Positions 5,192-58,997 of a stretch of DNA of 64,000 bases are shown piece after piece. A program made the position numbers and the translations under genes. Source of the DNA: an uncultured Flavobacteriaceae bacterium (GTDB taxonomy: Bacteria; Bacteroidota; Bacteroidia; Flavobacteriales; Flavobacteriaceae); the NCBI GenBank assembly GCA_943788095.1, contig CALSOZ010000001.1, positions 186,001 through 250,000 of the forward strand. The letters are read 5' to 3'. Position 1 is the first letter of the stretch; every line of letters starts with the position of its first letter. The notes beneath the pieces are model-generated. The model saw only the letters and a program-made list of their open reading frames with translations. It ran no database searches and was not told the origin of the DNA.

Positions 5192-5192
5192 C

Positions 5193-6623: not shown

Positions 6624-6650
6624 AATTATATATTAAGGTCTTGTTGTTGT

Positions 6651-7190: not shown

Positions 7191-7365
7191 AAGTGTATTA
7201 AATATGTTAAAATAAAAAAACAATAACATCGTGTTTTAGCCAAGATTTTGAATTAGAAAGGTTATTAATTTTATCATATAATGGTGTGTCATACAATATA
7301 AATTCCTGTGTTTTAAATTTTAACCTTGTTTCTCATACGTCATGTTCATAAAAGATACAACTTTG

Positions 7366-7989: not shown

Positions 7990-8657
7990 TATTGATTCTT
8001 TTGTTTGTAAATCATCTCCGCTAGTTTAAAATCCTCTGGCCAGTCAATATCTAAAGACTCATACCCTTCTGTCAAAAACAAATACGGTTTTAAGCCTATT
8101 CTGTCTTGATGATTTATATAGTTTTCTCTTGAATTAATAAAAAACCCACTATTTATTTCATATAATTCTGGTAGTGATTGGGTACGAGGCCATTTTTCAA
8201 TAGATCGATTATAATTAATGGGCTTTTCTTTATCCCACAAAAATGTTTGTATTTTATTGACTGTCATTAAGCTGTCATATTCATCAGAATTAAAGTATTG
8301 CTCAATTGCTTTTTCAAATGTAGAAACCGATATAAAAGGTGACGTTACGTGAGTCCATAAAATATCTTCATCTTTAATTATTGTAGGTACATAATTAATA
8401 ATATCATCTGTGCTTGCTGAGGATGTTGCTAAGCGCTCTGGTCTTATGTCTATTACAACCCTTTCGTTTTTAAAAGATTTTGCAATATTTATTACCTCAG
8501 TGTCATTAGTAGATACCACTATACTATCAATCGCGGGAACTTTTAGAAGTGTGTTAAGTTTAACTTTTAACAATCCACCTTTTACACCTGCAAATGTTTT
8601 TGTATTCTTTTGAGGAATTCGTTCACTACCTAGTCTGCATGGAAGAAATATTGTCAT
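7989..8657 (-). CDS. Acylneuraminate/Kdo-type cytidylyltransferase (CMP-sugar synthetase)
   Basis: 222 residues. The N-terminal nucleotide loop 'PCRLGSERIPQKN' (residues 6-18) matches the R-x-G-S-x-x-I-P-x-K-N signature of CMP-sialic acid and CMP-Kdo synthetases. 'RPERLATSSAST' (72-83) corresponds to the second conserved block that contacts CTP, and 'WTHVTSPF' to the Q/H-x-T-S-P-[FL] substrate loop. The enzyme would condense CTP with a 2-keto sugar acid in the cytoplasm. It overlaps by one base (TAATG) with both the aldolase upstream and the HAD gene downstream, a very tight three-gene unit. No NeuB homologue is visible in the window, so the sugar acid is probably supplied by the aldolase next door. 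Confidence 0.85.
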   Translation of the reverse strand: MTIFLPCRLGSERIPQKNTKTFAGVKGGLLKVKLNTLLKVPAIDSIVVSTNDTEVINIAKSFKNERVVIDIRPERLATSSASTDDIINYVPTIIKDEDILWTHVTSPFISVSTFEKAIEQYFNSDEYDSLMTVNKIQTFLWDKEKPINYNRSIEKWPRTQSLPELYEINSGFFINSRENYINHQDRIGLKPYLFLTEGYESLDIDWPEDFKLAEMIYKQKNQ

Positions 8658-25640: not shown

Positions 25641-25656
25641 CGTTCCACGTGGAACA
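25641..25656. other. parS-like ParB-binding palindrome (site 1)
   Basis: CGTTCCACGTGGAACA contains the 14-bp perfect palindrome GTTCCACGTGGAAC, matching the parS consensus TGTTNCACGTGNAACA except at the first base. It sits between mnmG and the methyltransferase gene, 2 bp before the latter's ATG. Confidence 0.75.
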
Positions 25657-25667
25657 ATTGCAGTTTA

Positions 25668-27539
25668 TTAACGCCCCATGTAGACTAATAAAACAGAAAT
25701 GTCATTAGGGGAAACTCCACTAATTCTTGAAGCTTGCGCAACAGTTACAGGCTGAACGTTCTTCAGCTTTTCGCGGGCCTCATAACTCATGGATTTGATT
25801 TGAGAATAGTCATATCCCTTAGGAATTTTGACATATTCTAAGCGTGTTAATTTATCTGCATTGTTTTTTTCTTTAGCAATATAACCCGAATATTTTACCT
25901 GAATCTCCGTTTGCTCAATCACTTCGTTATCTAAATTATGATCGCGAATGTAAGACTCAACAGGTTCAAATTTACGAACATCTTCAATACCAATATTGGG
26001 TCTTGTAAATATTTTAAATAGTTTATCCGATTGTCGTATTGGTGTGGACTGTTTAGCCTCTAAGATCGGGTTGGCATCTTCGGGTTTGATGCTTTGTGTT
26101 CTAAAAAACCCCACAAACGCCTCCGCTTTAGAAAGCTTTTCCTCCATGCGTCTCAACCGTTTTTCGCTTGAAATCCCTAAGTCATATCCTTTGGGTGTCA
26201 AACGGATATCGGCATTATCTTGTCTAAGTAGTGTTCTGTATTCTGCTCGTGAGGTGAACATTCGATACGGTTCTTCCGTTCCCTTAGTTATTAAGTCATC
26301 GATCAAAACACCTATATAGGCTTCATTTCGTTTTAATATGAAAGACTCCTTTTCTTGAACCATAAGACTCGCATTGATCCCCGCCATTAAACCTTGAGAG
26401 GCTGCTTCTTCATAGCCTGTGGTACCATTGATTTGCCCTGCAAAATAAAGCCCCTTAATAATCTTTGTTTCTAGCGAATGTGTCAACTGAGTAGGAGGGA
26501 AGTAATCATATTCGATTGCGTAACCAGGTCTAAAAAACTTGACATTCTCGAATCCTTTGACCGCACTTAAAGCTTTAAACTGGACATCTTCAGGAAGGGA
26601 GGTGGAAAACCCATTCACATAGTATTCAACAGTATTCCAACCTTCTGGTTCCACGAAAATTTGATGGCTGTCTTTATCCGCAAAACGATTAATTTTATCT
26701 TCAATCGAGGGACAGTATCGAGGCCCTAAACTTTGGATACGGCCATTGAACATCGGAGAACGGTCAAAGCCTTCTCGTAGTAAATTATGAACCTCTGAGC
26801 TCGTATGTGCCATATGACAAGAACGCTGCGTTGTGAGCGGCTTGGTCTCATCGGAATATGAAAACTTTTCGGGGACTGTGTCGCCAGGTTGTTCGGACAT
26901 TTTAGAAAAATCTAAGGAGCGACCATCAACTCTTGGGGGTGTTCCAGTTTTCATTCGGCCGGAATCAAACCCTAAATCAATGAGCTGTTCAGTAATGCCC
27001 GTAGCAGCTTTTTCTCCTGCACGACCACCCCCAAAATTTTTATCTCCAATATGAATTAATCCATTTAAAAAAGTACCATTCGTCAACACAACAGACTTTG
27101 CTCTGATCTGTAAGCCTAGTGAAGTTTTCACCCCCTTGACAGTATCGCCTTCAACGATAAGACCAGTCACCATTTCTTGATAAAAATCGAGATTTTTGGT
27201 TTGTTCTAGCATCAATCGCCAGTCTTCAGCGAAACGCATCCGATCACTTTGTACGCGTGGACTCCACATCGCGGGACCCTTCGATTTGTTAAGCATTTTA
27301 AATTGAATCGCGGAGGTGTCACTTACGATACCGCTATAGCCACCGAGCGCGTCAATTTCACGAACAATTTGTCCTTTAGCAATACCTCCCATCGCAGGAT
27401 TGCAAGACATCTGTGCAATGTTTTGAAGGTTCATCGTCACAAGGAGTGTGCTACTTCCCATGTTGGCGGCAGCGGCAGCAGCTTCGCTTCCAGCGTGCCC
27501 TCCTCCAACTACAATTACGTCGTAAATTTTATTAAACAT
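25668..27539 (-). CDS. mnmG: tRNA uridine-5-carboxymethylaminomethyl modification enzyme MnmG
   Basis: 623 residues, full length. FAD-binding 'VGGGHAGSEAA' (11-21), 'GTFLNGLIHIG', 'GGRAGEKAATGI' and 'TGTPPRVDGRSLD' are family signatures; the C-terminal 'LEYVKIPKGYDY' and 'SRISGVSPNDISVLLVY' segments bind MnmE and tRNA. With MnmE it modifies U34 of several tRNAs. The gene (gidA) is often close to the replication origin and ParB sites; here parS-like palindromes flank it on both sides. Confidence 0.97.
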   Translation of the reverse strand: MFNKIYDVIVVGGGHAGSEAAAAAANMGSSTLLVTMNLQNIAQMSCNPAMGGIAKGQIVREIDALGGYSGIVSDTSAIQFKMLNKSKGPAMWSPRVQSDRMRFAEDWRLMLEQTKNLDFYQEMVTGLIVEGDTVKGVKTSLGLQIRAKSVVLTNGTFLNGLIHIGDKNFGGGRAGEKAATGITEQLIDLGFDSGRMKTGTPPRVDGRSLDFSKMSEQPGDTVPEKFSYSDETKPLTTQRSCHMAHTSSEVHNLLREGFDRSPMFNGRIQSLGPRYCPSIEDKINRFADKDSHQIFVEPEGWNTVEYYVNGFSTSLPEDVQFKALSAVKGFENVKFFRPGYAIEYDYFPPTQLTHSLETKIIKGLYFAGQINGTTGYEEAASQGLMAGINASLMVQEKESFILKRNEAYIGVLIDDLITKGTEEPYRMFTSRAEYRTLLRQDNADIRLTPKGYDLGISSEKRLRRMEEKLSKAEAFVGFFRTQSIKPEDANPILEAKQSTPIRQSDKLFKIFTRPNIGIEDVRKFEPVESYIRDHNLDNEVIEQTEIQVKYSGYIAKEKNNADKLTRLEYVKIPKGYDYSQIKSMSYEAREKLKNVQPVTVAQASRISGVSPNDISVLLVYMGR

Positions 27540-27554
27540 TATAACATTGTTTAA

Positions 27555-27570
27555 TGTTCCACGTGGAACA
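27555..27570. other. parS ParB-binding palindrome (site 2)
   Basis: TGTTCCACGTGGAACA is a perfect 16-bp palindrome matching the conserved parS consensus TGTTNCACGTGNAACA at every defined position. It lies 15 bp upstream of the mnmG start. Site 1 is 1,914 bp away. Confidence 0.85.
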
Positions 27571-27608
27571 AATCGTTTGAAGATGCAAATATAAGGGTTT
27601 AGAAAAAA

Positions 27609-28022
27609 TTAATCGTTACGTTGTTGAAGATAGAAATCTTCTTTTGTTCGCATCAATGCGGCATCAGATTTGGACTTATCCTTATAACCACAATAATGCA
27701 GAACACCATGCGCCATTACCCTAGAAAGTTCTGTGTCAAAAGACTGATTAAATTCGATTGCATTTTCGCGTACCCGTTCAATTGAAATAAAGATCTCGCC
27801 ATGAATCTCTTTTCCTATAGAATAATCAAAACTAATAACGTCCGTCAAAGTATCATGATTTAAAAACTCTACGTTCAAATTGTGTAAAAAAGCATCATCA
27901 CAAAACACAATTGAGACCTCGCCTTCGTTATAATTTTCCTGAGAGATGATTGCTGTTAACCAGTCTGAAACGGCTGATTGGTTTGAAATTTCGAAGTTGG
28001 TTTCTGAGTGAAAACTAATCAT
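27609..28022 (-). CDS. ybeY: rRNA maturation endoribonuclease YbeY
   Basis: 137 residues. The zinc site 'HGVLHYCGYKD' supplies His ligands in the H-x3-H-x5 pattern of UPF0054. 'LNVEFLNHDTLTDVISF' is the other family block. It processes 16S rRNA 3' ends and takes part in ribosome quality control. It overlaps the upstream DUF4175 gene by 8 bp, and mnmG follows 70 bp later. Confidence 0.93.
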   Translation of the reverse strand: MISFHSETNFEISNQSAVSDWLTAIISQENYNEGEVSIVFCDDAFLHNLNVEFLNHDTLTDVISFDYSIGKEIHGEIFISIERVRENAIEFNQSFDTELSRVMAHGVLHYCGYKDKSKSDAALMRTKEDFYLQQRND

Positions 28023-31000
28023 TTGGGTTCTTAAAATATTCTTGTACTTTTTGCTTAAATTCCTGTCGCAAAGGTAAGCTTTGTCGATTTAATATCTCTG
28101 TTGTATTAAAATATTGTTTAATCACCTCTGGACTTGGAGCTGGAGACTGGAAACGATCAGCTTTACTGGTGTCAGCAACGCGTTTTGTATCTTCGCCTTG
28201 TTGCAACGCTGCCTTTTCTAATTTTAACAACTGATGCTTAAGCGCCTTCATGTCTTGTAAAGACTTTGACGTAACCCCTTGATTTATAAGGTTTTGTTCA
28301 ATTTTTTCCATAGCATTAAGAAGGTTTTGAGCGCCTTGTCCGATCCCTTTTTTGTCTAACAATTCTTGCAGTGCATTTCTCAATTCTTGTTGCTTTTTAA
28401 AAATCTCAAACAACTCACCGGTATCACCTTCAGAGTCACCACCAAGACCACTTGGCTTAGCGCTGTTTCTCTGACCTTCGTCACCTGGAGCGCCGTCATC
28501 AACTGGTTTTGAGCTAGAATCCCCTTCACCAGAATCCTTATTTGAATCGGCTTTTCCCTTCTCAGAACCTTGCTTTTCACCGTTTGGTTTTTTTCCGTTC
28601 TCGTTGAGCTGCTTTTCCATCTCTTTGTTTAAAGCCTCTTGACTCATAATAATATCGGGTAATTGCATCTCGCCTTCGCCTTGGCCTGGGGAAAGCTGCA
28701 TTTCCATTTGCATGGAATTTAAAGTATTGCTCAACAGGTCTGCTAATTTATTGGTCGAGGAAACCGCAAATTGTTGAGCCGAGACCCCTTTTCGAGTATC
28801 GTTTTCTGAAAGTAATTCTAAACTTTTATCAATATTAAAAAACACATCCGTGATCTCAGAATTGACTTGCTCAGAGATCTTAGGCTGACGCAAGGAAAGT
28901 GCAAACAAGCTATCGTCCACGTGCTCAAAATGCTCCCTAAGATTGCTTTGTTTCACAAGTCGTTGCGCATAGTCGTTATTATTAGACGGCGAGGTCTTAA
29001 AACGATTCATTAAGGCCTCTTGATCAAAGGAAAACAAAAGTAAGTTGTCTAAAATTTGACGTAACATCTCAACATCTTCATTCAGTTGTTCGGCAGAACC
29101 ACTGCCCATTTGACTCGACATTTTTTTCCCCATTTGACGCATCTTTTGTGCCGCCTTCCTTTGGCTTTTTTGAGCCTTTGAAAGTTGACTGGTTTTGTCT
29201 TGAGGGTTAGATGACTTTTCTTTTTTACCTAAATCTTCACTGGCATTTTCTTGATCTTTTTGAATCGATTTTTCTAGATTAGGGTCATCGGGAATCGAAA
29301 GCGGTTTTGACAACGCCTCGTTATCTTTCTTCAAATCATTTAATTGTTTTAAGAGATCCTTGAAGTCGTCATTCAATTGATCTTGAGCAGATTTAGAGTT
29401 TTGCTCCGACGATTCTTTAGATAATTCAGACTGTGCTTCAGATAATTTATTTAAGGCTTCTTGGAGTTGCTCTGCTTTTTTGGTCACATAATAGCGTTTC
29501 GTAAGCTCGAGTAATTGTTCTAAACTACGTTGTTTATTTTTATTTTGTTTGGCCATTTCCTCCAGTTTTTCAGCCAATTGTTCCTTGTTAATTTTATCGG
29601 TAACTTTTTTAAGCTCCTCAAGAAGTTTTTCGTGTTTTTTTAGCGTTTCCTTCTGTGCGTCTAATCGTTTTTCTAGCTGTTCTTTAAAAGGGTCCTTTTT
29701 TTTAGATTTATTAAACTGATTTAAATTCTTCTTCATTTTGTTGTTGAATTTCTTCAACATTTGATCTTGCACTTTTTGACGTTCTAAAAATGATTTTAGT
29801 TTTTGTTGATCACTGAAATTCAACTGAGGTGTTTGTTTTTGATTTTGAGACAACTCTTTAAGTGATTGGTCTTGTTCAGCCATAGAATTTAACGCTTTTT
29901 GAAATGCCGTTGATAACTCGTTCTGTTCTTGAAGTTGAAGTTCTTCAAGTGTGTTTTGGCTTTTGGAATTATAGTTAAAAACACGACTTCTAGTAGACTT
30001 GTTTTGATGGAACGGATCATTATCAAAAACCTCAAAATAAAGGGCATAAGCAGTATCCTCAATTAATTCTAAATTAGATGGAAAAGCGTAGGTGAATTCT
30101 TGAAACGTCTGCACATCAGCTGGCAGTAAAAGTGATTTCGACTTTGTGGGGTCGTCCATTGGATAATAATGAAGTTTTAGGGAATTGATCCCATAATCAT
30201 CTGAGATTTGGCCGTAAAAAAATAGGGTTTCTTGATAGGTAGAATCCTGTTTCATTTCTACTTTGATTGTGGGCCGTTGATCTTTAATGGTTTGGATGGT
30301 AAACGCTAAGTTTTCATAATTCTTAAGTTGAGTGTTACTCGTTTGAATCGTATAACTTAAAGACTCAAACAACTGTTTGCTAAATTGAAACTTTTGATTA
30401 TTGGCTTCAAAAAATAGCGCCTTGTCTTTGTATGCAAAGACTACGGAGTCCGTTGACTTAGTAGTTAGTTCCCAACTCAACTTGGTTCCTTCTGGGATCA
30501 TGGCATTCCCATTGTTCGCAATTTTTTGATCTGTTTTGCCCGTATAAGTTGGGTAGTCTAAGTATAAATCAAAATGAAGTAAGACTGGTGTGTTTATGAG
30601 GTCTAGATGATATGGTTTAGAAATAACGTCTCCCGCAATTAAGGTAAAGTTGACGGGCGCTTTTAACTGGCGGAATTCATGTTCAAAAACGCCTAATTGC
30701 GGTTGATTCAATATATAAGACGCTTTGTCATAAACAATTTGAACTTCTTCAGGGATGACAGAACCCACTGTTTTTACAACCAACGTAAAAGACGTGTTTT
30801 CAATGGCCTCAAGCGGGTTGTTCATCACAAAAAAAGAAAACGGCGCCGGCGGAAAATAGGTGGTTTGATAATTGACAACCCGTTTTAAACTGTCTGTAAA
30901 CACCGCTTGCTTGCCAAACATAAAAAACACAAAAACAATAAGAATTGGCACAACGGCATACCTAAGATATTTTAAATTATCCTTCAGGTTTACGGCGTTT

Positions 31001-31423
31001 TTAAACGGAACTAAACTCAAGTTTTTGGATTTCTGTTCGATGCTGGCTAAAAGAAACTCTGTGTGTTGCGATTGTTGGTTCAGCTGAAGGACATTTAAAA
31101 GTTTGTCCTTCACTTCCGGAAAATGTTTACCGACTATTTTAGAGGCTGTTTCATTGTCAATGCCTTTTTGGATTTTAAAATATTTTGCCAATGGAATGAA
31201 AATCAACCTATAAAAAAGAAAAGCCTCAAAACCAACAACACACCAAAACAAGAGGGTTCTTCCAAAAGGATTTAGCCAAAAAAAAGTGTTCAATAATCAG
31301 TGTAAATAACCCATACAGCAAACCAATAGCAACAAACAGCAGCAACCCTTTCAGTAAAGCGCTGATATAATAGCGTCTGATGAATTGTTCTAATTTTTGC
31401 TCTATGTTGTGAAACCCTTCCAG
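28015..31423 (-). CDS. DUF4175 family large coiled-coil membrane protein (5' end frameshifted)
   Basis: The main open frame runs from 31293 (a TTG codon) and gives 1,092 residues: one membrane helix near residue 110, beta-rich repeats (about 150-430), then long Q/K/E-rich coiled coils and a low-complexity G/S/N-rich stretch near 900-960. Homologues I know of start earlier. Reading on in another frame restores the expected N-terminus: 'NIEQKLEQFIRRYY', then 'LLKGLLLFVAIGLLYGLF', a first membrane helix, up to 'EHFFWLNPFGR'. The frames join if one base is removed from the 8-A run at 31278-31285. The restored frame has CTG, not ATG, at 31421-31423 where Met is expected. Function unknown. Confidence 0.8.
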
Positions 31424-31907
31424 TTAAAACCTTGTTTAAAAAAATAAAATTACAATAATATTCCATATTGATGGTGGCTTTATCATAATATGTGAAGAAA
31501 AATAAGGAATGAATAATAAGACGCCATTGCAATGAGTGCTTGATTTAAAAAAGAATAAAAAACTTCATTTGTTTTGGACACCGCTGATTTTTTATATAAA
31601 TTTAGGGTTGATTTTGACCCCAAGTCTAAATCTTCAAAAAGCAATTTAACCGAAGTTTTAGATCTAATTTTATTGAGAATAGCGTATTGGAAAGGTTCCG
31701 GTATCCGCCCTATGTAGCGGTTTTTTGAACACCTCATTTAATAACGCATGGTTGTAAGATAAGTGTGTTTCAAGATGAATAGAGGGCTTTAATTAGATGT
31801 TAAATTGCTGATTATGCGTTTTTGGGAAAAAATTAATTCACATACAGCGGTAAAAGAAATAACGGCCCTAGTACCGATATACAGTAGTTAGCGACAATAA
31901 GACAAAA
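31424..31907. other. 484-bp stretch with no recognised gene
   Basis: A minus-strand open frame of 84 codons (31483-31737) has no domain I recognise and overlaps another unassigned frame; I do not call it a gene. Near 31867-31905 there is a 'gatatacagtagttagcgac'-type segment like those often seen between mobile genes in Bacteroidota, but I cannot prove a repeat. This is the left part of the accessory island. Confidence 0.4.
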
Positions 31908-32148
31908 ATGATTGAAGATAAAATACAGGAATTCAAAACTGAGCTTAAATTAAAAAAAGATTTAGATGTCGTCAGAAAGTTCATCACGTCTGGAGATAGT
32001 TTTGTTTTAGATTCTGATAAGTATTTGGATTTGAAAGATTTTGAAAACTTAAGGGAATGGGAAGCAGATATGTGTTGAATTTTCCAATAGGACTTTTAGA
32101 AATTCGTTCAAGATACAATCAAAATACATTTCAGAAGCAAAAAATTAA
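31908..32148 (+). pseudogene. Small orphan ORF, frameshifted, upstream of the DUF262 gene
   Basis: An ATG at 31908 opens 'MIEDKIQEFKTELKLKKDL', charged and helical, which stops after 57 codons. A single-base shift near 32076 continues it as 'VEFSNRTFRNSFKIQSKY' to a stop at 32148, about 80 residues in all, 5 bp before the DUF262 start. The close coupling suggests that the two work together. No domain recognised; it could be a small accessory or immunity-type protein, but that is a guess. Confidence 0.4.
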
Positions 32149-32153
32149 ATAAA

Positions 32154-33138
32154 ATGAAAACATCAGGAACAAACATTAGATTAAGAAAATTACTTTCAGG
32201 TCTTAAAAATGGAACATTAATACCACGCCCAGAATTTCAGAGAAGACTAGTATGGGCAAATAAACATAAGATTGCATTTATTCAAACAGTTCTTGAAGGT
32301 CTCCCTTTTCCAGAAATTTACATTGCCGCAGGTGACGTAAATCTTACTAGTGGAGAAGGAAACGAAATGATTGTTGATGGTCAACAAAGAATTTCAACTT
32401 TATATCAATATTTTACTGGTTCAGATGAGATTAAATATCCTTCTGACGTTTTGCCTTATGAAAAACTTACCCCACAGCAACAAGAAGATTTTTTAGAATA
32501 TGAGGTCGTATAAGAGATTTAGGGAAACAAACAATTGAGAATATTAAAACTATTTTTCAACGAATAAACTCAACAAATTACTCTTTAAATGCAGTTGAAA
32601 TTCATAATTCAAGATTTGATGGAGCACTAAAAATGTTTGCTGAAGAATTATCTGAAAATTCATTTTTCGAAGACCCATTCTGTGTTTACCAACAACGATA
32701 TAAAGAGGATGAGAGACCTAGGTTTTTCTTTGTTAACTTCTATAACTTTATTATCAAGTTATTTTAATCTTGAAACAGAATTCGAGACATTCCTCGAAAA
32801 ATACAATGATGAGTTTCCTGATTCTGAAAAGCTAAAAACAGAAATTGAATTTATACTTAATCAAATTGAGTCTTTAGATTTTGATGAAAAATCAAGAGTT
32901 TATAAAAAGAATGACTTATTCACCCTAATCATTGAGCTTCATAGAGGACAATTTAAGGAGTCAAAAAATACGATAATAAAAAATTGAGACTAATTTGAAA
33001 AGCTTCTATGCAAAAGTGGAGGCAGAAGATATGTCACCTGATGTGCAAGAATATATAAAAAATGTTATCCAAGGAACTAATAGTAGAAGTGCCAGAATTA
33101 CAAGAGGTCGTATTATCGCAAAAGTAATAAATGAATAA
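32154..33138 (+). pseudogene. DUF262 (GmrSD N-terminal-like) protein, several frameshifts
   Basis: The first frame shows the DUF262 hallmarks 'RPEFQRRLVW' (25-34) and 'IVDGQQRISTL' (DGQQR at 75-79), the ParB/Srx-like nucleotide-binding and cleavage fold of GmrS-type enzymes. It stops at 32513, but the same protein continues in other frames through shifts near 32510, 32680 and 32985, ending '...RGRIIAKVINE' at 33138. Restored length is about 328 residues. I see no DUF1524/HNH domain, so it is a stand-alone DUF262 protein. Such genes often neighbour restriction-modification systems, as here. Whether it is truly dead or just badly sequenced is open. Confidence 0.65.
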
Positions 33139-33317
33139 AAAGCTAGTAAAAATGTATAAAAATAATAGTGGTTTAATCGATAAAATGAAAGTAAGTGAAT
33201 AAAAAAAAGGTCTGTGTTTAACCGAAAAGTTTGTGAGTATAAACCACGCTACTACTCATAGCCAATCCCGTTGCCAGAAATTAGAACAAACCACAGCGTA
33301 AAAAGACAAAAAGAAGA

Positions 33318-35782
33318 ATGAAGTATAAAAATATCCGAGAAGAAGAACTAAAAAACAAAGTTGGTGCTGACTGGTTTAAACAATTTGATACAACCGAAAT
33401 TCTTGGAAATATTGACTTTACCGTTTTTCCAAAACAAGATAATTTATTTGGAAGAATACCTCTTTTATGGGCAGAAGCTAAAACAGGAAATTTTGACATT
33501 CCAACAATGTTTGTGCAACTCATTCTTACAATTGGAAAAGCACGAACTTTTGACAAAACTTTGCCACCAGCATTTTTAGGAGCTTTTGACTTCAAAAAAA
33601 TTGCCTTTGTTGATTATATAAATATTCAAGATATTTTTTACCTCAACGACTTTAATTGGAATGTAACCCCAAGCAACCACGAAACAAAAGAATTTCAATT
33701 AATTAAAGACCGAATAGAAGCCGTCTTAAAAACTAAAACTTATGTTTTTGAATATCAAAAAGACGAAAAGATACTTAATACTTTCATTAAAAATAATGTG
33801 GCTAAAGCCACAACAAAAAATAGAATCAAAATTGACAAAAACAATTTCATTCCAATTTATTTACGTTGGATTGAGATTGTTAAACCTATAATTGACGTTA
33901 ATTGGGATGACTTAAAAAAAGCAAATATTCTTGATAGTGATTTTTATCTAGCTGACATATTCGTTGACGACAAAGGCACACAAAATATTGATGATGATTT
34001 AACCATAAGAGATAGTTTGTTTGTTGTCTTTCAAAATCAAGGCTACTCTATTAGCTAAAGAAAATGTCAAGCAAATGTCTTGATGCTACCATAAACATTC
34101 GCAATAAAGATGCTTATTTGCAATTTTGGAAACTCTACAAAAGACCACCAATAAAGGAGTTTCAAGATTACATTATAGAACGCAGAGATTTACTTGCACC
34201 ACAAGATATTAGAGAGCGTAAAGGAGCATTTTTTACGCCTCGTATTTGGGTAGAACTTTCGCAAAAATACTTAACAGATTATTTAGGCGAAAACTGGCAA
34301 GACGATTATTACATTTGGGATTGTGCGGCAGGAACAGGTAATCTTTTAGCAGGCTTACCAATAAATATAACATTTATGCAAGTACATTAGACCAAGCCGA
34401 TATTAATGTAATGAACGAGCGTATTGACCACGGAGCCAACTTGTTGAAAAATCACGTTTTTCAGTTTGACTTTTTAAATGATGATTTTACGAAACTTACC
34501 TCAAAGTTTCAAGAATTATTAATGACTCAGAAAAACGTAAAAAACTTATTATTTATATCAATCCACCGTATGCAGAGGCTACTTCGAAAAAACTTTAACT
34601 GGAAAGAGGGATAAAGTAGGCGTTGAACAATCTTTAATAATTAAAAACTACAAACCTAAATTGGCAAGGTAAATGAAATATTTGCCCATATTTTAATAGC
34701 GATTAATAACGAAATAATGTGTTGCTATAATTGGAGAATTTTCAAATTGAAAATTCTGCAAGGCAGTCATTTTTCTGATTTTAGAAGACTTCTTATAAGC
34801 AAAGTTAGAAAGAATGTTTTGTGTTCCTGCCGAAACATTTGATAATGTAAAAGGTAAATTTCCAATTGGATTTACGATTTGGGATTCTTCCATAAATTTC
34901 TTTGAAAGAATATTTACTGATGTTATAATAAAAAGGGGATTTTATAATGCAAAAAGAAATTATCCTATGAAAATTCAGAATTTATTAATGAATGGATAAA
35001 ACCATTTAGAGCAAATAAAAATGATCATTAATTATTAGGTAAGTTCCCATTCATGGCAATGATTTTCAAAACAAAATATTATTATTTTATATCCGATTAT
35101 ACATAAAGCGGCATGGTCAATTTTTAATAAATACAAAGAATTTAATTAAAACTTCAATTTATTTTAGCGGTTAGAAAAAGTATTCCTGCAACTTGGCTTA
35201 ATGACAGAGACCAATTTTTAAAGCCAAATGATGGTATGGCAAACTGATCTTGAATTTCAAAATGATTGTTTGGCATTATACACTTTTTAGAAATAAATTC
35301 AAAGCGATATGGCACCAACCATTGGATCCCCTTTACCGAACAAGAAGTAAATGCCCAAGAATAGATTTGAGAGCAACTTTATGACCGATTTTATTAATGG
35401 AAAAATCAAAATAGAAGAGAAACGACTTGTTTGGAACTAGTACAAATCAACCTACAAAAAGAGAATTTTCAGAAGAAGCTACAGCGTTTTTGATGCTGGC
35501 AGAGAACTTTGGAAATACTATCATAGCCAACCCAACGTAAATGTAAACGCAAGTTTTTATGACATTAGAGCTCACTTTCAAGGCAGAAACGACAAAGGCA
35601 GAATGAACTCAAAAAGTGATGATGAAAGATATATGGAATTGATTGGCGAATTAAGGAACAAACTGAGCTTTTTAGCCGACAAAATCAAGCCGAAAATATA
35701 CGAATACGAATTTCTAAAAGATAATAACTGCTGTCTACAAAAAACAGCTCTTTTCTTGATAAATTTTGGAGCTATTTTGTGA
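33318..35782 (+). pseudogene. Eco57I-like type II (IIG-type) restriction-modification enzyme, many frameshifts
   Basis: The first intact segment (33318-34058) is a 246-residue N-terminal nuclease-type region, with 'FPKQDNLFGRIPLLWAEAKTG' resembling an [ED]xK core in such fusions. After single-base shifts the frame continues with 'ERKGAFFTP', SAM motif I 'DCAAGTGNLLAGL' (about 34320-34358), and the N6-adenine methyltransferase catalytic motif NPPY at 34560-34571. Further fragments give 'CVPAETFDN', 'FPIGFTIWD', 'FPATWLND'-like text and a C-terminal 'DDERYMELIGELRNKLSF', consistent with one protein of about 800 residues. At least six shifts are needed. Target sequence unknown. The end coordinate is approximate. 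Confidence 0.6.
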
Positions 35783-35804
35783 TCCTAAAAACACCGCCTA
35801 TTTC

Positions 35805-35836
35805 TTTGGGGAATGCCTTCAACAATTCTATCTTTG
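35805..35836 (+). promoter_or_regulatory. Promoter of gltX (TTTG-N20-TATCTTTG)
   Basis: TTTG at 35805-35808 and TATCTTTG at 35829-35836 are separated by 20 bp, matching both elements of the Bacteroidota housekeeping promoter (-33 TTTG, -7 TAnnTTTG) at normal spacing, 18 bp before the gltX ATG. It is the best promoter match I found. Confidence 0.65.
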
Positions 35837-35854
35837 TGGCACTAATACAAGACC

Positions 35855-37372
35855 ATGAACACTCCTATTCGCGTACGATTTGCACCAAGCCCCACAGGGC
35901 CACTCCATATTGGAGGTGTGCGAACCGCTCTTATTTAATTATTTATTCGCCAAAAAACACGGAGGCACTTTTGTGCTTCGCATCGAAGATACCGATCAAA
36001 AACGCTATGTTGAAGGCGCAGAAGAGTATGTTGTAAATGCCCTTGATTGGTGCAACATTCCTTTTGATGAAGGTCCCGGAAAAGACGGTGGCTTTGGGCC
36101 GTACCGACAAAGTGAACGCAAGCATTTATACAAGCAGTATGTCGATTTACTGATAGAGAACAATAAAGCCTATTATGCCTTTGATACAGCGGAGGCTCTG
36201 GACGAAGAACGTAAAAACCACGAAGCAAAGGGCAAAACCTTTATCTATAATTGGCACAACAGAACAAAGGTCGATTGGTTAATTCTTTGGTCTTATCCAA
36301 AGAAGAGGTGGCAATAAAATAGCGAAATGGCGATGCGCTATGTGGTTCGTTTTTTAGGGCCACAAGATGAAACGCTTGAGCTTACAGATCTTATTCGAGG
36401 TACTATAAAAATTGACACCAACACCCTTGATGATAAGGTTTTGTTCAAATCGGACGGCATGCCTACCTATCACATGGCTAATGTGGTGGATGATTATTTA
36501 ATGAAAATCACCCACGTCATTCGTGGAGAAGAATGGTTGCCTTCACTGGCGTTGCATGAATTACTATACACTGCTTTTGGCTGGGAGGCGCCCAAGTTTG
36601 CGCATTTACCCTTAATTTTAAAGCCAACAGGCAAAGGAAAACTAAGTAAACGTGACGGAGATAAACTCGGATTTCCGGTATTTCCATTGAACTGGGAGGA
36701 CCCATCAACCAATAGCGTGTCAAAAGGCTATAAAGAAAGTGGTTACTTTTCAGAAGCGGTCATCAATTTCTTAGCGTTCTTAGGTTGGAACCCGGGAACA
36801 GAACAAGAGATTTTTGATTTAGAAGAACTTGTGAGGCCTTTGATTTAAAAAACGTGAATAAAGCCGGCGCGCGCTTTGACCCAGAAAAAACAAAGTGGTT
36901 CAATCACCAGTACATGCAAACGGCAGATACAGAACACTTGGCAGCAACATTTATAAGCGCAACTCCCGAAATAGCGTCTATGGACCCTGGCTATGTAGAG
37001 TTGGTCGTAAAACACATTAAAGAACGGGCAACCTTTCCTTCTGAATTTTGGGAATTAAGTCATTACTTTTTTAAGGCCCCAGAAAATTATGCAGAAGCAG
37101 CCCTTAAAAAAGTGTGGAAAGAACATTCTAAAGACCTCATGCTACAGTTGATTACACAGCTTGAAACAGCAGATGACAGCTCTGTTGAGGCGCTTCAAAC
37201 AGCTGTTAAAGGATGGATCACCGAAAACGAAATTGGATTTGGAAAAATTATGATGCCTTTAAGAGTGGCGCTGGTTGGTGCGCTGGAAGGAGCCGATGTT
37301 TTTGACATCGTATTTCTCATCGGGAAAACCGAAACCATCAAACGGATTCAAGCGCTGATTGATCACCACTAA
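35855..37372 (+). CDS. gltX: Glutamyl-tRNA synthetase (frameshifted as sequenced)
   Basis: The ATG at 35855 begins '[21 protein letters not shown]', the class I HIGH motif, but an extra T near 35931 breaks the frame. The sequence then continues '[22 protein letters not shown]', with further shifts near 36277, 36315 and 36830, through '[26 protein letters not shown]' (described in pieces), the KMSKS equivalent '[15 protein letters not shown]', and ends at 37372. Restored length is close to 505 residues, normal for GluRS. It charges tRNA-Glu, an essential step, so four independent breaks are best explained by sequence errors. It is followed by lepA. Confidence 0.9.
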
Positions 37373-37402
37373 TTAATCTTAATAAAGTGTTGGAAATTTG
37401 AT

Positions 37403-37410
37403 TACTTTTG
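37403..37410 (+). promoter_or_regulatory. -7 promoter box for lepA
   Basis: TACTTTTG matches TAnnTTTG, 33 bp before the lepA ATG; no convincing -33 element. Confidence 0.4.
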
Positions 37411-37443
37411 CCTTCGCATACAACGCAGCCATAAACAGAGTAA

Positions 37444-39241
37444 ATGAAGCATATTAGAAACTTTTGTATCATCGCGCATATTGACCACGGTAAAAGTACT
37501 TTGGCAGATCGCTTATTGGATTTTACGGGCGCTGTTACAGAACGTGAAAAACAAAGCCAGTTACTCGATAGTATGGACTTGGAGCGCGAACGTGGGATTA
37601 CCATCAAGTCGCATGCGATTCAAATGGAATATACCCACAAAGGACAGGAATATATCTTAAACTTAATTGACACCCCGGGTCATGTCGATTTCAGTTACGA
37701 AGTGTCACGGTCCATCGCTGCTTGTGAAGGCGCTCTGTTGATTGTCGATGCTGCACAAAGCATTCAAGCACAAACCATTTCAAATTTATATTTAGCGCTT
37801 GAGAATGATTTAGAAATTATTCCTGTTTTAAATAAAGTTGATTTGCCTAGTGCAAATCCAGAAGAAGTTACTGATGATATCGTTGATTTACTCGGTTGTG
37901 ATGCAGCAGATGTAATTCCTGCCAGTGCAAAAACAGGCATTGGAATTGAAGCAATATTAACCGCTATTATTGAAAAAGTTCCGCCACCAAAAGGCGATCC
38001 TGAAGCGCCTTTACAGGCCTTGGTTTTTGATTCTGTTTACAACTCTTTTAGAGGGGTTGAAACCTATTTTAAAATCAAAAACGGAAGCATTAAAAAAAAC
38101 CAACAAGTTAAATTTATCGCGACCGGCAAAACCTATGGCGCAGATGAAGTGGGAACCCTCAACCTGACTCAAACCCCTAAAAAAGAAATAAAAACAGGCG
38201 ATGTTGGTTACTCTAATTACAGGCATAAAAGATGCCCGCGATGTCAAAGTAGGCGATACCATTACAGATGCCAATTTCCCAACAACCGAAGCGGTTGAAG
38301 GGTTTGAAGATGTAAAACCAATGGTTTTTGCAGGACTCTATCCTGTAGATACCGAAGAATATGAAGAGCTGCGCGCTTCCATGGAAAAACTACAATTGAA
38401 TGACGCCTCCTTAGTGTTTCAAGCGGAAAGCTCTGCGGCCTTAGGATTTGGGTTTCGATGTGGGTTTTTAGGAATGTTGCATTTAGAAATTATTCAAGAA
38501 CGCCTAGAACGAGAATTTAATATGACCGTTATTACAACGGTTCCCAATGTTTCGTATCATGCGTTTACACGAAAAGATCCTGACGAAATTGTCATTCTTA
38601 ACAACCCAACAGACTTGCCAGATCCATCTGGATTAGACCGTGTCGAAGAACCCTACATCAAAGCGTCCATCATTACAAAATCGGATTTTGTTGGAAATGT
38701 CATGTCATTGTGTATCGAAAAGCGCGGACAAATTACAAGTCAAACCTACCTAACGCCAGAACGTGTGGAGTTAACCTTTGACATGCCTTTGGCAGAAATT
38801 GTGTTTGACTTTTATGATCGATTAAAAACCGTTTCTAAAGGGTATGCCTCTTTTGACTATTCGCCAATTGGGATGCGTGTTTCAAAATTAGTTCGTGTGG
38901 ATGTGTTGCTAAACGGTCAAACAGTCGATGCGCTTTCGGCGTTGATCCACGTAGACAACTCTGTAAATATTGGTAAAAAAATGTGTTCTAAGCTAAAGGA
39001 ATTAATTCCTCGACAGCAATTTGATATTCCAATTCAGGCAGCTATTGGAGCGAAAATCATTTCCAGAGAGACCGTAAAAGCAGTGCGTAAAGATGTTACT
39101 GCCAAGTGTTATGGTGGTGATATTTCTCGAAAAAGAAAACTTTTAGAAAATCAGAAAAAAGGTAAAAAACGAATGCGTCAGGTTGGGAATGTGGAAATTC
39201 CGCAAGAAGCATTTATGGCTGTTTTGAAACTGAACGATTAA
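37444..39241 (+). CDS. lepA: Elongation factor 4 (LepA), one frameshift
   Basis: Reads '[15 protein letters not shown]' (G1, 11-25), 'GITIKSHA' (G2), '[12 protein letters not shown]' (G3) and 'NKVDLP' (G4), a translational GTPase of LepA type. The frame breaks near 38208-38214 inside 'KTGDVGYLITGIKD', where one extra base interrupts the run; downstream it continues intact through the LepA-specific C-terminal domain '[25 protein letters not shown]' (given in order only). Restored length is about 598 residues, normal. It acts on stalled ribosomes by back-translocation. Confidence 0.93.
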
Positions 39242-50853: not shown

Positions 50854-51285
50854 TTAACACGGTTTTATTTTATTGATTCTATTTTGATGACGTCCCCCTT
50901 CAAATTCTTTATTTATAAATGTTTCAACCATTTCTAAAACAACCTCTATCTCAGTAAAACGGGCAGGAATACAAAGTATATTAGCATTGTTATGTTGACG
51001 TATTAACGACACTATTTCATTTGTCCAACATATACCTGCTCTGATGTTTGAATATTTATTTGCGGTCATTGCGACGCCATTTGCACTTCCACATATTAAA
51101 ATTCCGAAAGTTGCTTTTTTACTTTCAACATCTTGAGCGACAGGATGTACAAAATCAGGGTAATCGACACTCGAGTCCGAATCTGTTCCATAATTTATTA
51201 CCTGTATCTTTTTTGATTTTAAAAATTCTACAATTTTGAATTTATAATCTGTTCCTGCGTGATCGTTTCCGATAGATATGTTCAT
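50854..51285 (-). CDS. rpiB: Ribose-5-phosphate isomerase B
   Basis: 143 residues. It shows 'GNDHAGTDYK', the catalytic-cysteine block 'ILICGSANGVAM' (Cys65) and 'NNANILCIPAR', the LacAB/RpiB signatures. It interconverts ribose-5-phosphate and ribulose-5-phosphate in the pentose phosphate pathway. It is divergent from rnr across a 544-bp AT-rich gap. Confidence 0.94.
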   Translation of the reverse strand: MNISIGNDHAGTDYKFKIVEFLKSKKIQVINYGTDSDSSVDYPDFVHPVAQDVESKKATFGILICGSANGVAMTANKYSNIRAGICWTNEIVSLIRQHNNANILCIPARFTEIEVVLEMVETFINKEFEGGRHQNRINKIKPC

Positions 51286-51829
51286 ATTTTAAAACTTAAA
51301 TTATTAGTAAATTTACAAAAAAGTACATTACCTAATTTGAATTGTTTATAGCCTTTTTAATTAGTTGTTAATAATTAATGAACGATTATGAAAACTTAAT
51401 TTTTATATTTCAAATTATTTTATCAAACATATATTTAAAAATTAAAAACTAATTAAGTTATCTTTTTTAATTATTTACTTATGAATATTGAAAAGGTGCT
51501 TGTAAACAAAAAAATAGAAATTACTTATCAATTGTTCTATGTGAGTAGAGGTTATTAACGACCTATAATATGTATAAACAATGATTTGTAAGTCAGATAA
51601 TTAACTAAATAATTTATTGTTAACTAATTGTTTATAATATGTATATAAGTGATAAAACAAATGAATATTTAAAAACTTATACTAGCTATTCACAGACTAT
51701 AATATACAGCATTAGTTTTTAAATAATTTAATAAAAAATTAATATGATTATATTAAATGTGGATAAAGTTAAAAAGAGATGACTTTTGGTTGAATTAAAG
51801 TAGTAGCTTTGCTTAATTAGATACCTTAA
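51286..51829. other. AT-rich divergent intergenic region, candidate replication origin
   Basis: 544 bp without a gene, strongly AT-rich. It contains a perfect DnaA box on the minus strand (TTATCCACA, read as TGTGGATAA at 51758-51766), a one-mismatch box (CTATTCACA, 51686-51694), and a 13-bp repeat TATAATATGTATA at 51564-51576 and 51633-51645, with a similar TATAATATACA at 51698-51708. AT-rich runs such as those near 51420-51470 could act as an unwinding element. I see only one strict DnaA box, so origin function is unproven. Confidence 0.4.
51804..51811 (+). promoter_or_regulatory. -7 promoter box for rnr
   Basis: TAGCTTTG matches TAnnTTTG, 18 bp before the rnr ATG. A TTTTG (51784-51788) lies 15 bp upstream, somewhat closer than the usual 17-23 bp. 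Confidence 0.5.
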
Positions 51830-53998
51830 ATGAAAAGAAAAAAGAAAACCAAGCAATCTATTGAAAATTATAGTCAAAGAATATTAACTATTCTTAAAGC
51901 AGATAGAAAAAAAACATTCAATCATAAGCAAATTGCGGCACAACTTTGTGTAAATGATGCGAGTAGCCGTAACCAGATTATAAAAAATCTTCACAAACTT
52001 GCCGGTCAAAAAGAAATAGAAGAAATAGAACGAGGTAAATTTCAAATAACCTCCTCATCAGAATATTATATTGGAACAGTCGATATGGCTTCTAGAGGCA
52101 ATGCATATATTGTATGTGAAGATCTAGATGAAGATGTATTCATAGCCGCAAATAAAATGCAAAAAGCGCTTCATGGAGATACGGTTGAATTTTATGTTTA
52201 TAATCGAAAAAAGAACGGCAAAAAAGAAGGAGAAATTACTCAAATAATTACCCGTTCCCGAACCGATTATGTTGGAGTTGTACAATTAAATGAAAAATTT
52301 GCCTTTGTTGTTCCTAATAGTAATAAAATGCCAGTGGATGTTTTTGTACCTCTTTCTAAAACCCTAAAAGCCGAAAACGGCGATAAAGTTTTGGTAAGTT
52401 TAGAAGAATGGCCAGATAAAGCAGAGTGCCCTAATGGAAAAATAATTAAAATATTAGGAACACCAGGCGAGCATAATACAGAAATTCATTCCATATTAAC
52501 TGAATATGGTTTGCCGTATGAATTTCCAACCGAAGTAGAAACGTTTGCAAATAATATAGACACTTCTATCACAGAAGGAGAAATTTCTAAACGTCGCGAC
52601 ATGCGATCTACTCTTACTTTTACAATAGATCCAAAGGATGCAAAAGATTTTGATGATGCACTCTCTTTTAAACAACTTCCCAACGGCAATTACGAAATAG
52701 GAATTCATATAGCCGATGTATCTCATTACTTACAAGAAGGCACTATTCTAGATGACGAAGCATACGAACGGGCCACCTCTGTTTATTTAGTGGATAGAGT
52801 TGTTCCAATGCTTCCCGAAGTATTATCAAACAATGCGTGCTCTTTACGTCCAAACGAAGAAAAATATACGTTCTCTGCAGTTTTTGAAATTAATAAAAAA
52901 GCTCTTTTAGAAAACCAATGGTTTGGAAGAACAGTTACTTACAGCGATGCGCGTTTTGCTTATGAAGAGGCTCAACATATTATAGAAACTGAAGCTTGTG
53001 AAATTCCAAAAGAAATTTCAATAACTGGTGAAACATACACTGCAGATACAGCAATTAAAGAAGCTATCTTAAAATTAGATGAACTTGCGAAAATCATGCG
53101 ACAAAAACGCATGAAAGACGGTGCTATCTCTTTTGACAAAACAGAAGTTAAATTTAATATTGACGAAGCGAATAACCCTGTAGGTGTGTTTTTTAAAACA
53201 TCCAAAGATGCAAATAAACTAATTGAAGAGTTTATGTTGTTAGCAAACAGAAAAGTTTCAGAATTTATTGGAAAACAATCCCCTCAAAAGACTTTTATTT
53301 ATAGAACTCATGACGAGCCTGATGATCAAAAATTAGCCGGTCTTCAAAGAATTGTATCTCAATTTGGTCACCAACTAAATTTAAAAAACAGAGAAACAAC
53401 AACACAATCTCTAAACACCCTTCTTAAAAATGTAAAAGGAACCAAAGAACAAAATTTAGTAGACACCTTAACTATTCGTTGTATGAGTAAAGCCGCTTAC
53501 TCTACCAAGAATATTGGACATTATGGCCTTGCTTTTGATTATTACAGTCATTTTACTTCTCCAATTAGAAGATACCCTGATGTTATGGCACATCGTTTGC
53601 TACAACATTATCTCGATGGTAATAAAACAACCAGCGAAGGGATTTATGAAGAAAAATGTAAACACGCTTCTAATATGGAATATCTTGCAACAAAAGCAGA
53701 ACGCGATTCTATAAAGTACATGCAAGTCAAGTATATGCAAGACCATAAAGAAGATACTTTTTTAGGGGTTATTTCTGGAGTAACCGAATGGGGAATGTAT
53801 GTAGAAATTATAGAAAACAAATGTGAGGGTATGATAAGAATTAGAGATATTAGAGGCGATTTTTATAGATTTGATGCAGAGGAATTTGCTTTAATAGGAG
53901 AAAAAACAAAAACAAAATACCAGTTAGGGGATGAAATTGAGGTCCGCGTCAAACAAGCCGATTTGGTTAAAAAACATTTAGACTTTAGTTTAGCTTAA
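51830..53998 (+). CDS. rnr: Ribonuclease R
   Basis: 722 residues, full length. An N-terminal winged helix-like part is followed by two cold-shock-type OB folds (about 80-215), the RNB catalytic domain with 'TIDPKDAKDFDDALSF' (catalytic Asp268, 273, 275, 276), the 'HYGLAFDYYSHFTSPIRRYPD' block (in order) and a C-terminal S1 domain (about 635-720, 'FLGVISGVTEWGMYVEI'). It degrades structured RNA 3'-5'. It is the only gene of this strand within a divergent pair with rpiB. Confidence 0.96.
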   Translation: MKRKKKTKQSIENYSQRILTILKADRKKTFNHKQIAAQLCVNDASSRNQIIKNLHKLAGQKEIEEIERGKFQITSSSEYYIGTVDMASRGNAYIVCEDLDEDVFIAANKMQKALHGDTVEFYVYNRKKNGKKEGEITQIITRSRTDYVGVVQLNEKFAFVVPNSNKMPVDVFVPLSKTLKAENGDKVLVSLEEWPDKAECPNGKIIKILGTPGEHNTEIHSILTEYGLPYEFPTEVETFANNIDTSITEGEISKRRDMRSTLTFTIDPKDAKDFDDALSFKQLPNGNYEIGIHIADVSHYLQEGTILDDEAYERATSVYLVDRVVPMLPEVLSNNACSLRPNEEKYTFSAVFEINKKALLENQWFGRTVTYSDARFAYEEAQHIIETEACEIPKEISITGETYTADTAIKEAILKLDELAKIMRQKRMKDGAISFDKTEVKFNIDEANNPVGVFFKTSKDANKLIEEFMLLANRKVSEFIGKQSPQKTFIYRTHDEPDDQKLAGLQRIVSQFGHQLNLKNRETTTQSLNTLLKNVKGTKEQNLVDTLTIRCMSKAAYSTKNIGHYGLAFDYYSHFTSPIRRYPDVMAHRLLQHYLDGNKTTSEGIYEEKCKHASNMEYLATKAERDSIKYMQVKYMQDHKEDTFLGVISGVTEWGMYVEIIENKCEGMIRIRDIRGDFYRFDAEEFALIGEKTKTKYQLGDEIEVRVKQADLVKKHLDFSLA

Positions 53999-56963: not shown

Positions 56964-58997
56964 ATGTCAGATACTCACAAACCGCTCAACTTTTTAGAGC
57001 AAATAGTAGAAGAAGATTTAAAGAACGGCTTGCCGCAAGACAAACTGCGCTTTCGATTTCCACCAGAACCAAATGGTTACCTTCACATTGGTCATACAAA
57101 GGCGATTGGGATAAGTTTTGGATTGGGACAAACCTATAACGCACCCGTCAACTTGCGTTTTGATGACACAAACCCCACCAAGGAAGATCAGGAATATGTA
57201 GATGCCATCAAAGAAGATATCTCTTGGTTAGGGTATCAATGGGATAAGGAAGTATACTCCTCGGACTATTTTGAGCAATTACATACTTGGGCAATAGAAA
57301 TGATAAAAGAGGGTAAAGCGTATGTAGACTCACAATCTAGCGAAGCCATGGCCATTCAAAAAGGAACGCCAACGCAACCCGGAGTAGATGGGCCCTTTAG
57401 AAACCGATCTGTCGAAGAAAACTTAACACTTTTCAATCAAATGAAAAATGGCGAGTTTAAGGCTGGGACGCACGTTTTAAGAGCCAAAATAGACATGAAG
57501 CACGTTAATATGCTAATGCGCGACCCGTTAATGTATCGCATCTTACACGCGGAACATCAACGAACAGGCTCAAAGTGGTGTATATATCCAATGTATGATT
57601 GGACCCACGGCGAAAGTGATTATTTAGAACAAATTTCTCACTCCCTATGTTCGTTAGAGTTTAAGCCTCACAGAGATTTATACGATTGGTTTAAAACCAT
57701 CGTCTCTAATTATACAACGAAAGAAACCCTACCCTTAATTCCAAAACAACGCGAATTTGCACGTCTAAACTTAAGCTATACCATTATGAGTAAGCGAAAG
57801 TTATTAAAATTAGTGGAGGAGAAAATTGTGAACGGCTGGGACGACCCTCGAATGCCAACGATTTCTGGATTAAGACGTCGAGGTTACACTCCCACCTCAA
57901 TTCGTAAGTTTGTTGAGACCATTGGGGTTGCAAAGCGCGACAATATAATCGACGTCTCTCTTTTAGAGTTTTGTGTTCGGGAAGATCTTAACAAAAAAGC
58001 AGCTCGAATTATGGCTGTATTAGATCCCGTAAAGCTTGTGATTCTAAACTATCCAGAAGGAAAAGAGGAATGGCTTGAGGCAGAAAACAACCCAGAAGAC
58101 CATAGCATGGGAACGAGAACCGTTCCCTTTTCAAAACACCTTTACATAGAACGTGACGATTTTAAGGAAGAAGCCAACAGTAAGTATTTTAGACTCTCTC
58201 TCGGTAAAGAAGTACGACTTAAAAATGCGTTTATTATCAAAGCAGAAAGTGTTTTAAAAGATTCTAGTGGAAAAATTTTAGAAATTCACTGTCGTTATGA
58301 CCCAAAAAGTTTAAGCGGCAGCGGAACTCCCGAAAGCCTTCGAAAAGTTAAAGGAACCTTACATTGGGTTTCTCCAGCGCACGCTGTTGAGGCAGAAGTT
58401 AGAGAATACGACCGTTTGTTTGTTCATGAAGATCCAGACAATCAACCAGAAGAGTTTTTAACATTTGTAAATCCAAAATCATTAAACGTTCGAAAAGCAT
58501 TTATTGAGCCACACATAAAAAAGGCTAAGGTTGGAGAGTCATTTCAATTCCAGCGCATTGGTTATTTCAACCTAGATAAAGACACAAGTGATCACACCTT
58601 GGTGTTTAATAAGACCGTTGGATTGCGGGACACATGGGCAAAACAAGCGCCTAAACATACCGCTAACCAGTTCAAACCAAGTCCACCTCAACACTTTCAA
58701 AGAAAGCCGATTGACGTCATTAAACAACTCGGAAAAAAATACACAAATCTTCCAGAAGAGAAGCAACAAAAAGTTAAAAAGGAGATTCAATTACTCGCTA
58801 AAGAGGTTTCTTTTGAAGATTTAGAGCCGTTATTTAATACAGCTGCCAAAAAAGTAGGCACGCGCATCGCAACGGTCATTACCTTAAACGAATTATTAAA
58901 AAAAGGCTTAAAACGCAGCGAACAAATCGACTTGTTTGTAGCAACCGCCAAAGCCGACGATCATCCCTTATTAAAGGAGGAAGCGAAACGTCTTTAA
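56964..58997 (+). CDS. glnS: Glutaminyl-tRNA synthetase with C-terminal extension
   Basis: 677 residues. The class I HIGH motif is in 'PPEPNGYLHIGHTKAI' and the KMSKS equivalent in 'IMSKRKLLKLV'. The catalytic and anticodon-binding domains end near residue 560. A Lys-rich extension of about 110 residues follows ('VIKQLGKKYTNLPEEKQQKVK', then 'RIATVITLNELLKKGLKRSEQ'); E. coli GlnRS is about 554 residues. It might be a shortened YqeY/GatB-type helper, but I cannot confirm it. It charges tRNA-Gln. Confidence 0.95.
   Translation: MSDTHKPLNFLEQIVEEDLKNGLPQDKLRFRFPPEPNGYLHIGHTKAIGISFGLGQTYNAPVNLRFDDTNPTKEDQEYVDAIKEDISWLGYQWDKEVYSSDYFEQLHTWAIEMIKEGKAYVDSQSSEAMAIQKGTPTQPGVDGPFRNRSVEENLTLFNQMKNGEFKAGTHVLRAKIDMKHVNMLMRDPLMYRILHAEHQRTGSKWCIYPMYDWTHGESDYLEQISHSLCSLEFKPHRDLYDWFKTIVSNYTTKETLPLIPKQREFARLNLSYTIMSKRKLLKLVEEKIVNGWDDPRMPTISGLRRRGYTPTSIRKFVETIGVAKRDNIIDVSLLEFCVREDLNKKAARIMAVLDPVKLVILNYPEGKEEWLEAENNPEDHSMGTRTVPFSKHLYIERDDFKEEANSKYFRLSLGKEVRLKNAFIIKAESVLKDSSGKILEIHCRYDPKSLSGSGTPESLRKVKGTLHWVSPAHAVEAEVREYDRLFVHEDPDNQPEEFLTFVNPKSLNVRKAFIEPHIKKAKVGESFQFQRIGYFNLDKDTSDHTLVFNKTVGLRDTWAKQAPKHTANQFKPSPPQHFQRKPIDVIKQLGKKYTNLPEEKQQKVKKEIQLLAKEVSFEDLEPLFNTAAKKVGTRIATVITLNELLKKGLKRSEQIDLFVATAKADDHPLLKEEAKRL

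Follow-up and report, generated by a model that had tools for sequence, protein, structure and literature searches.

Computational prediction of a chromosomal replication origin in the rpiB–rnr intergenic gap of Flavobacteriaceae

Features of the rpiB–rnr gap

The window analysed here is a 64-kb stretch of DNA (C1:186001-250000) from a 1.74-Mb home assembly that comprises 23 contigs and is 75% complete, and its closest named matches are uncultured Flavobacteriaceae, with rnr identities of 96% and 86%. A sequence-only reading of the window had proposed that the intergenic gap between rpiB and rnr is a candidate oriC. Its description of the gap as strongly AT-rich (18% GC over 544 bp) and flanked by divergent genes (rpiB on the minus strand and rnr on the plus strand) was borne out; its further description of the gap as the longest clean one holds by ORFs of at least 100 aa if the frame-broken region at 31.3-35.9 kb is excluded, and fails otherwise. 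The features of the locus are as follows.

50854..51285, minus strand: rpiB, left flank (PF02502, E 1.4e-54)
51286..51829: predicted oriC region, the rpiB–rnr intergenic gap (544 bp, 18% GC, genes divergent)
51366..51374, minus strand: distal rpiB-side DnaA box, TTATTAACA (relatives carry minus strand boxes about 280-360 bp before the module)
51552..51560, plus strand: degenerate DnaA box, TTATTAACG, near a conserved plus strand box position (from sequence)
51671..51766, plus strand: conserved core module of box A, triplet-A tract, AT-rich stretch and box B (from the relatives' profile)
51686..51694, plus strand: DnaA box A, CTATTCACA, family form YTATYMACA (position conserved in relatives)
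51695..51757: probable DNA unwinding element, lying between the two facing boxes (63 bp, seven of them G/C)
51698..51712, plus strand: triplet tract, with A at every third base after box A (window retains four of five)
51758..51766, minus strand: DnaA box B, perfect TTATCCACA (sequence match, conserved)
51804..51811, plus strand: TAGCTTTG, probable rnr promoter −7 element (GTAG..CTTTG conserved in alignment)
51830..53998, plus strand: rnr, right flank (PF00773, E 9.2e-110)

The naming of TAGCTTTG is based on the TAnnTTTG form, which we take to be that of the −7 element. A sigma-70 scan of 51250-51860 returned 6 sites against 6.7 expected, and a tRNA was the sole match in an Rfam search of the window.

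The perfect DnaA box reported by the sequence-only reading at 51758-51766 was confirmed as TTATCCACA on the minus strand, the sole exact copy in the 64-kb window. DnaA boxes with one mismatch occur in the window at a chance number (20 versus 19.0 expected), so a lone perfect box proves little, and the single box was dropped as evidence in its own right. When the gap was compared with its shuffles, TTATCCACA was present once versus 0.005 times (P = 0.005) and YTATYMACA three times versus 0.17 (P = 0.001), the latter word having been chosen after an alignment that included the window. The near-match box proposed at 51686-51694 occupies a position conserved in relatives, although its sequence, CTATTCACA, is two mismatches away from TTATCCACA. 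Between this plus strand box A and the facing minus strand box B sits the AT-rich stretch; 63-bp windows with seven or fewer G/C, as it has, account for 112 of the 63,937 in the 64 kb. The repeated element TATAATATGTATA, also put forward as a mark of the origin, is present in two copies (51564-51576 and 51633-51645) but is unconserved: in a 19-sequence alignment, part of it is kept only in L033, the relative whose rnr is 96% identical, and it was dropped as origin evidence.

Conservation of the gap and its core module in relatives

Genome contigs were scanned for the locus and the best 80 loci were retained. Among these best 80, rpiB is divergent to rnr within 5 kb in 66, two differ, and in 12 rpiB was not found in the fetched piece. 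Of 148 family genomes, 137 carry the divergent pair on one contig, its matched stretches separated by a median of 843 bp (range 412 to 8751); in the remaining 11, the two genes are on different contigs (six genomes), gave no match (two) or are farther apart at 25 and 37 kb (two), and the last is G019. The G019 record begins between rpiB and rnr. In tables read by eye for 96 class genomes outside the family (rpiB found in 90), no genome was seen with rpiB upstream of rnr, divergent and at most 12 kb away on one contig; gene pairs split over contigs cannot be judged.

Enrichment was assessed in 60 relatives' gaps of 200-1400 bp (52.5 kb) against dinucleotide shuffles and 112.8 kb of other intergenic DNA from the same loci. 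TTATCCACA occurs 13 times in these gaps versus 0.45 in shuffles and is absent from the other intergenic DNA, and YTATYMACA occurs 193 times versus 12.2 (16-fold), with 25 occurrences in the other intergenic DNA. Because YTATYMACA was picked after viewing an alignment that contained the window, a module profile gives a fairer test; its training set was 16 relatives with rnr 68-72% identical and left out the window and its two nearest loci, L033 and L034, although the profile columns came from an alignment containing all three. On the 525,589-base contig C1, this profile found one site, C1:237672-237766 (51672-51766 of the window), at E 1.4e-9, the next match having E 3.4. The module was detected at E<0.01 inside 58 of 61 gaps, 16 of which are training rows, so that 42 of 45 held-out gaps carry it; the other three of the 61 gave no match at that threshold.

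A two-box pattern, box A and box B separated by 50-75 bases, has a single match in the 1.74-Mb home assembly, inside the gap. Over 32 genomes, the pattern was found in the gap in 21, only elsewhere in five and nowhere in six, and is thus absent from the gap in 11 of the 32; by eye, the box pair matched in the gap of G101, G108 and G109 is a different one. Of the 62 matching rows, some of which are one place counted on both strands, 31 fall in the gap. A backwards control pattern gave 45 matches over the same genomes, which indicates that the half of the rows lying outside the gap is background. By shuffles, profile and relatives, the cluster of DnaA boxes in the gap exceeds chance.

The boxes are also ordered. 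Read from rpiB to rnr over 65 loci, minus strand boxes positioned about 280-360 bp ahead of the module (49 boxes) are followed by plus strand boxes at about 120-160 bp (37 boxes) and minus strand boxes at about 40-120 bp (35 boxes), after which come box A (plus), the triplet tract, the AT-rich stretch and box B (minus). The window retains the first upstream box (51366-51374), a degenerate second (51552-51560), and boxes A and B. In relatives' gaps, ATACCGCTA is enriched just before box A (16 of 61 versus 0.1) and is absent from the gap of the window, and AACAGTTGT is enriched in the rpiB–rnr gaps at 25 versus 0.57.

Across the same 65 loci, the distance from rpiB to the module is tight (quartiles 402-465, extremes 263 and 8396, four loci above 700; window 386) and that from the module to rnr is loose (quartiles 158-620, extremes 60 and 1943 bp; window 64), which ties the unit to the rpiB side and makes it improbable as an rnr promoter. 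DnaA boxes regulate genes in other bacteria, and the promoter-like TAGCTTTG precedes rnr, both of which would suit a datA-like titration site for DnaA, or a promoter element through which DnaA controls rnr and rpiB, in place of a start site. We regard this explanation as very improbable, since the module-rnr distance spans 60 to 1943 bp, the AT-rich stretch is placed between facing boxes and, as described below, parS and the skew switch of relatives are both close to the gap. The rpiB–rnr gap appears to serve relatives as the origin too.

Chromosomal position: parS, dnaA and GC skew

A motif search of the window identified three parS matches, versus 0.09 expected.

25641..25656: parS-like site, one mismatch
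27555..27570: parS, exact
57541..57556: third parS-like site, three mismatches

The first two are the sites that the sequence-only reading had placed 24-26 kb from the gap, to which the third, weaker site is now added. In complete relatives, TGTTYCACGTGRAACA (parS) was found in 26 of 31 genomes, always within 55 kb of rnr (5-55 kb), downstream in 25 and upstream in one; it had no match in the other five, which include G094, of the same genus as the window. In G094, C1:1350001-1370000 reads N, on the side where the window has parS.

As the sequence-only reading stated, dnaA is outside the window: it is found on contig C10, and the DnaA that it encodes carries PF00308 and PF08299, the latter being the C-terminal helix-turn-helix DNA-binding domain. 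The distance between dnaA and rnr is about 19-49% of the chromosome in all 31 complete relatives (most lengths rounded), in keeping with that reading's premise that a Bacteroidota origin need not adjoin dnaA and with passages of PMC4755523 according to which the oriC of Bacteroidetes is commonly far from dnaA.

Strand-corrected GC3 skew was calculated on sampled 20-kb stretches of four complete genomes: G094 (39 stretches, one N stretch excluded), G017 (20), G062 (20) and G045 (20). With the terminus opposite, skew t at rnr was 4.4, 4.6, 3.5 and 12.0, respectively, and t at dnaA was −1.5, −4.5, −2.1 and −3.9. The best skew position was off rnr by 253, 48, 113 and 26 kb; resampling of the stretches put the best origin no more than 300 kb from rnr in 84, 69, 90 and 94% of trials, compared with 1% of trials or fewer for the same distance from dnaA in all four genomes. 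Thus rnr is preferred over dnaA by skew in four of four sampled complete genomes, at a resolution of tens to hundreds of kb. When the terminus was left free, the best fit for G017 was at 1.00-1.04 Mb, with rnr at 0.99 Mb, and that for G094 was at 1.88 Mb (t 6.6), 0.56 Mb off rnr (1.32 Mb, t 4.4). We dropped dif as a marker of the opposite pole because its consensus gave no excess over a backwards control.

These values bear on the possibility that replication starts at dnaA, which is what the numbering of many deposited records would suggest. The gene is in the first 1000 bases of the record in 11 of 31 complete relatives, though this may be mere convention, and parS and skew favour a distant origin. 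Skew t at dnaA is negative in four of four genomes, parS tracks rnr while dnaA is 19-49% of the chromosome from it, the distant placement described in PMC4755523 speaks against an origin at dnaA, and dnaA disagreed with the skew plot in the portion of PMC11278836 that deals with it. An origin at dnaA is accordingly the least probable of the alternatives, and hardly credible.

The home contig is less clear. The skew-minimum check suggested with the sequence-only reading was ambiguous on C1, where the raw cumulative GC-skew minimum is at C1:215159 (window 29.2 kb), 22 kb from the gap, with a second dip near 280 kb, and where the strand-corrected skew is weak, its t being 1.5 at the gap and at most 2.1 (at 220 kb) among the positions tried. 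Genes at 40-49 kb of the window form a plus strand block pointing toward rnr, as relatives' genes likewise do (rnpA in 50 of 51, S41 peptidases in 53 of 55); transcription-linked skew of this block may shift the minimum and so explain the offset. A rearrangement may also contribute to the weak skew. Among relatives holding the gene within reach, 43 of 44 have gltX downstream of rnr, and 24 of 25 have a DUF4175 gene there; in the window both are upstream and flipped. This arrangement is probably an inversion across the origin, which may explain the weak skew of the home contig. The parS/mnmG/DUF4175/gltX neighbourhood occupies 25.6-37 kb of the window, upstream of rnr; parS is downstream in nearly all judged relatives. 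Genes at 31294-39241 are frame-broken, with glutamyl-tRNA synthetase spread over three frames, lepA over two, and a GmrSD-type restriction fragment (PF03235) among them; the region is a decayed island, perhaps with assembly indels too. An origin at the raw minimum itself was rejected, since the stretch 26,683-33,796 contains no DnaA box even with one mismatch allowed.

The same raw minimum could be taken to favour an origin beside mnmG (window 25668-27539, where two parS sites lie), with the rpiB–rnr gap providing divergent promoters only. Passages of PMC12843772 and PMC11278836 place oriC at or beside mnmG by Ori-Finder 2022 and GC skew, in Algorimicrobium and Mariniflexile litorale, respectively, although a figure legend in the latter labels mnmG as ter, contradicting its own text. 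The box evidence points the other way. No YTATYMACA was found within 800 bp of the window mnmG; mnmG flanks of three loci, the window included, hold one YTATYMACA in 4.8 kb versus seven in 1.8 kb of rpiB–rnr gaps of two loci, and no DnaA-box cluster was seen beside mnmG in those three loci. On contig C1, 544-bp windows with at least three boxes occur only in the rpiB–rnr gap. The mnmG label may instead denote an indicator gene for a nearby region, given that parS flanks the window mnmG and is 5-55 kb from rnr in relatives. Because parS and mnmG are located near rnr, the assignments in Mariniflexile litorale and Algorimicrobium probably concern the same chromosomal neighbourhood, but differ in that the box cluster described here is in the rpiB–rnr gap. 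An origin beside mnmG is improbable, if less so than the titration or dnaA explanations.

Predicted working and significance of the origin

Conserved, ordered DnaA boxes, the presence of parS near rnr and the skew of the four sampled relatives support the candidate oriC call, and we predict by computation, with a probability of about 0.93, that the rpiB–rnr gap is the chromosomal replication origin. What was computed is the position, box cluster and conservation of the gap, its nearness to parS, the skew of relatives and a DnaA with its C-terminal domain; from these, DnaA binding, opening and the start of synthesis at the gap, with a ParB step, would proceed as follows. DnaA, encoded elsewhere on the chromosome, would bind the ordered rpiB-side boxes and the facing boxes A (51686-51694, plus) and B (51758-51766, minus), and a DnaA oligomer would open the 63-bp AT-rich stretch that separates the facing pair, starting from the triplet-A tract beside box A. 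Helicase would be loaded at the opened DNA and forks would leave in both directions, and ParB bound to parS 24-26 kb from the gap may help to segregate the new origins.

The triplet tract was analysed in 54 sequences with a strict box A, out of 71 modules. Adenine is present at +5, +8, +11, +14 and +17 after box A in 100, 100, 93, 98 and 98% of the 54 sequences, and several of the bases between vary. All five adenines are found in 48 of the 54 and at least four in every one; the window has four. Runs of at least five triplet-periodic adenines occur in 48 of 54 versus about 12 in shuffles, and the window has a run of three.

A triplet-periodic tract a few bases past a DnaA box and beside an AT-rich stretch resembles the basal unwinding system of B. 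subtilis and H. pylori, as described in parts of PMC8287927, PMC6669920, PMC10201434 and PMC8235120. According to these parts, the middle adenine of DnaA-trios is conserved (PMC8287927), the B. subtilis trios are on the bottom strand (PMC10201434), and, on the complementary strand, the H. pylori motif reads 5'-CTA-3', its thymine being strict and opening being abolished when the polarity of the motif is reversed (PMC8235120). Unlike that system, in which the adenines are on the other strand (3'-GAT-5'), the adenines here are on the top strand leaving box A 5' to 3'. We applied as the trio criterion three or more NAN triplets that lie no more than 16 bp from a DnaA box and have their adenines on the published strand. 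In that polarity, the window has a run of only two from box A, below the three required, and the tract was not classed as DnaA-trios; runs of at least three were found in 38 of 54 relatives' sequences versus about 26.5 of 54 shuffled, a weak excess. No literature on DnaA-trios at an oriC of Bacteroidetes was found among open-access papers. It is a tentative and rather doubtful proposal that Flavobacteriaceae oriC opens via a triplet-adenine tract of polarity opposite to the B. subtilis and H. pylori DnaA-trios, the strand caught by DnaA being the one that leaves box A 5' to 3' toward the facing box B. If true, the reversed tract would be a second arrangement of the unwinding module, kept across much of the family, and the tract raises the question of how DnaA opens DNA outside the model phyla.

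The predicted origin is of a kind already known, Bacteroidetes oriC being commonly far from dnaA according to passages of PMC4755523. As in the Prevotella intermedia OMA14 prediction given there, a box cluster is found at a skew switch far from dnaA; unlike that origin, the flanks here are rpiB and rnr. No paper naming rpiB–rnr as an origin was found in the open-access literature, and DoriC may list the gap for some species. The prediction supplies an exact, testable origin for a large bacterial family. Many deposited genomes begin at dnaA, which lies about a fifth to half a chromosome away, so the rpiB–rnr gap should be used instead in growth estimates from peak-to-trough ratios, in studies of gene dosage and strand bias, and for plasmids built on the origin.
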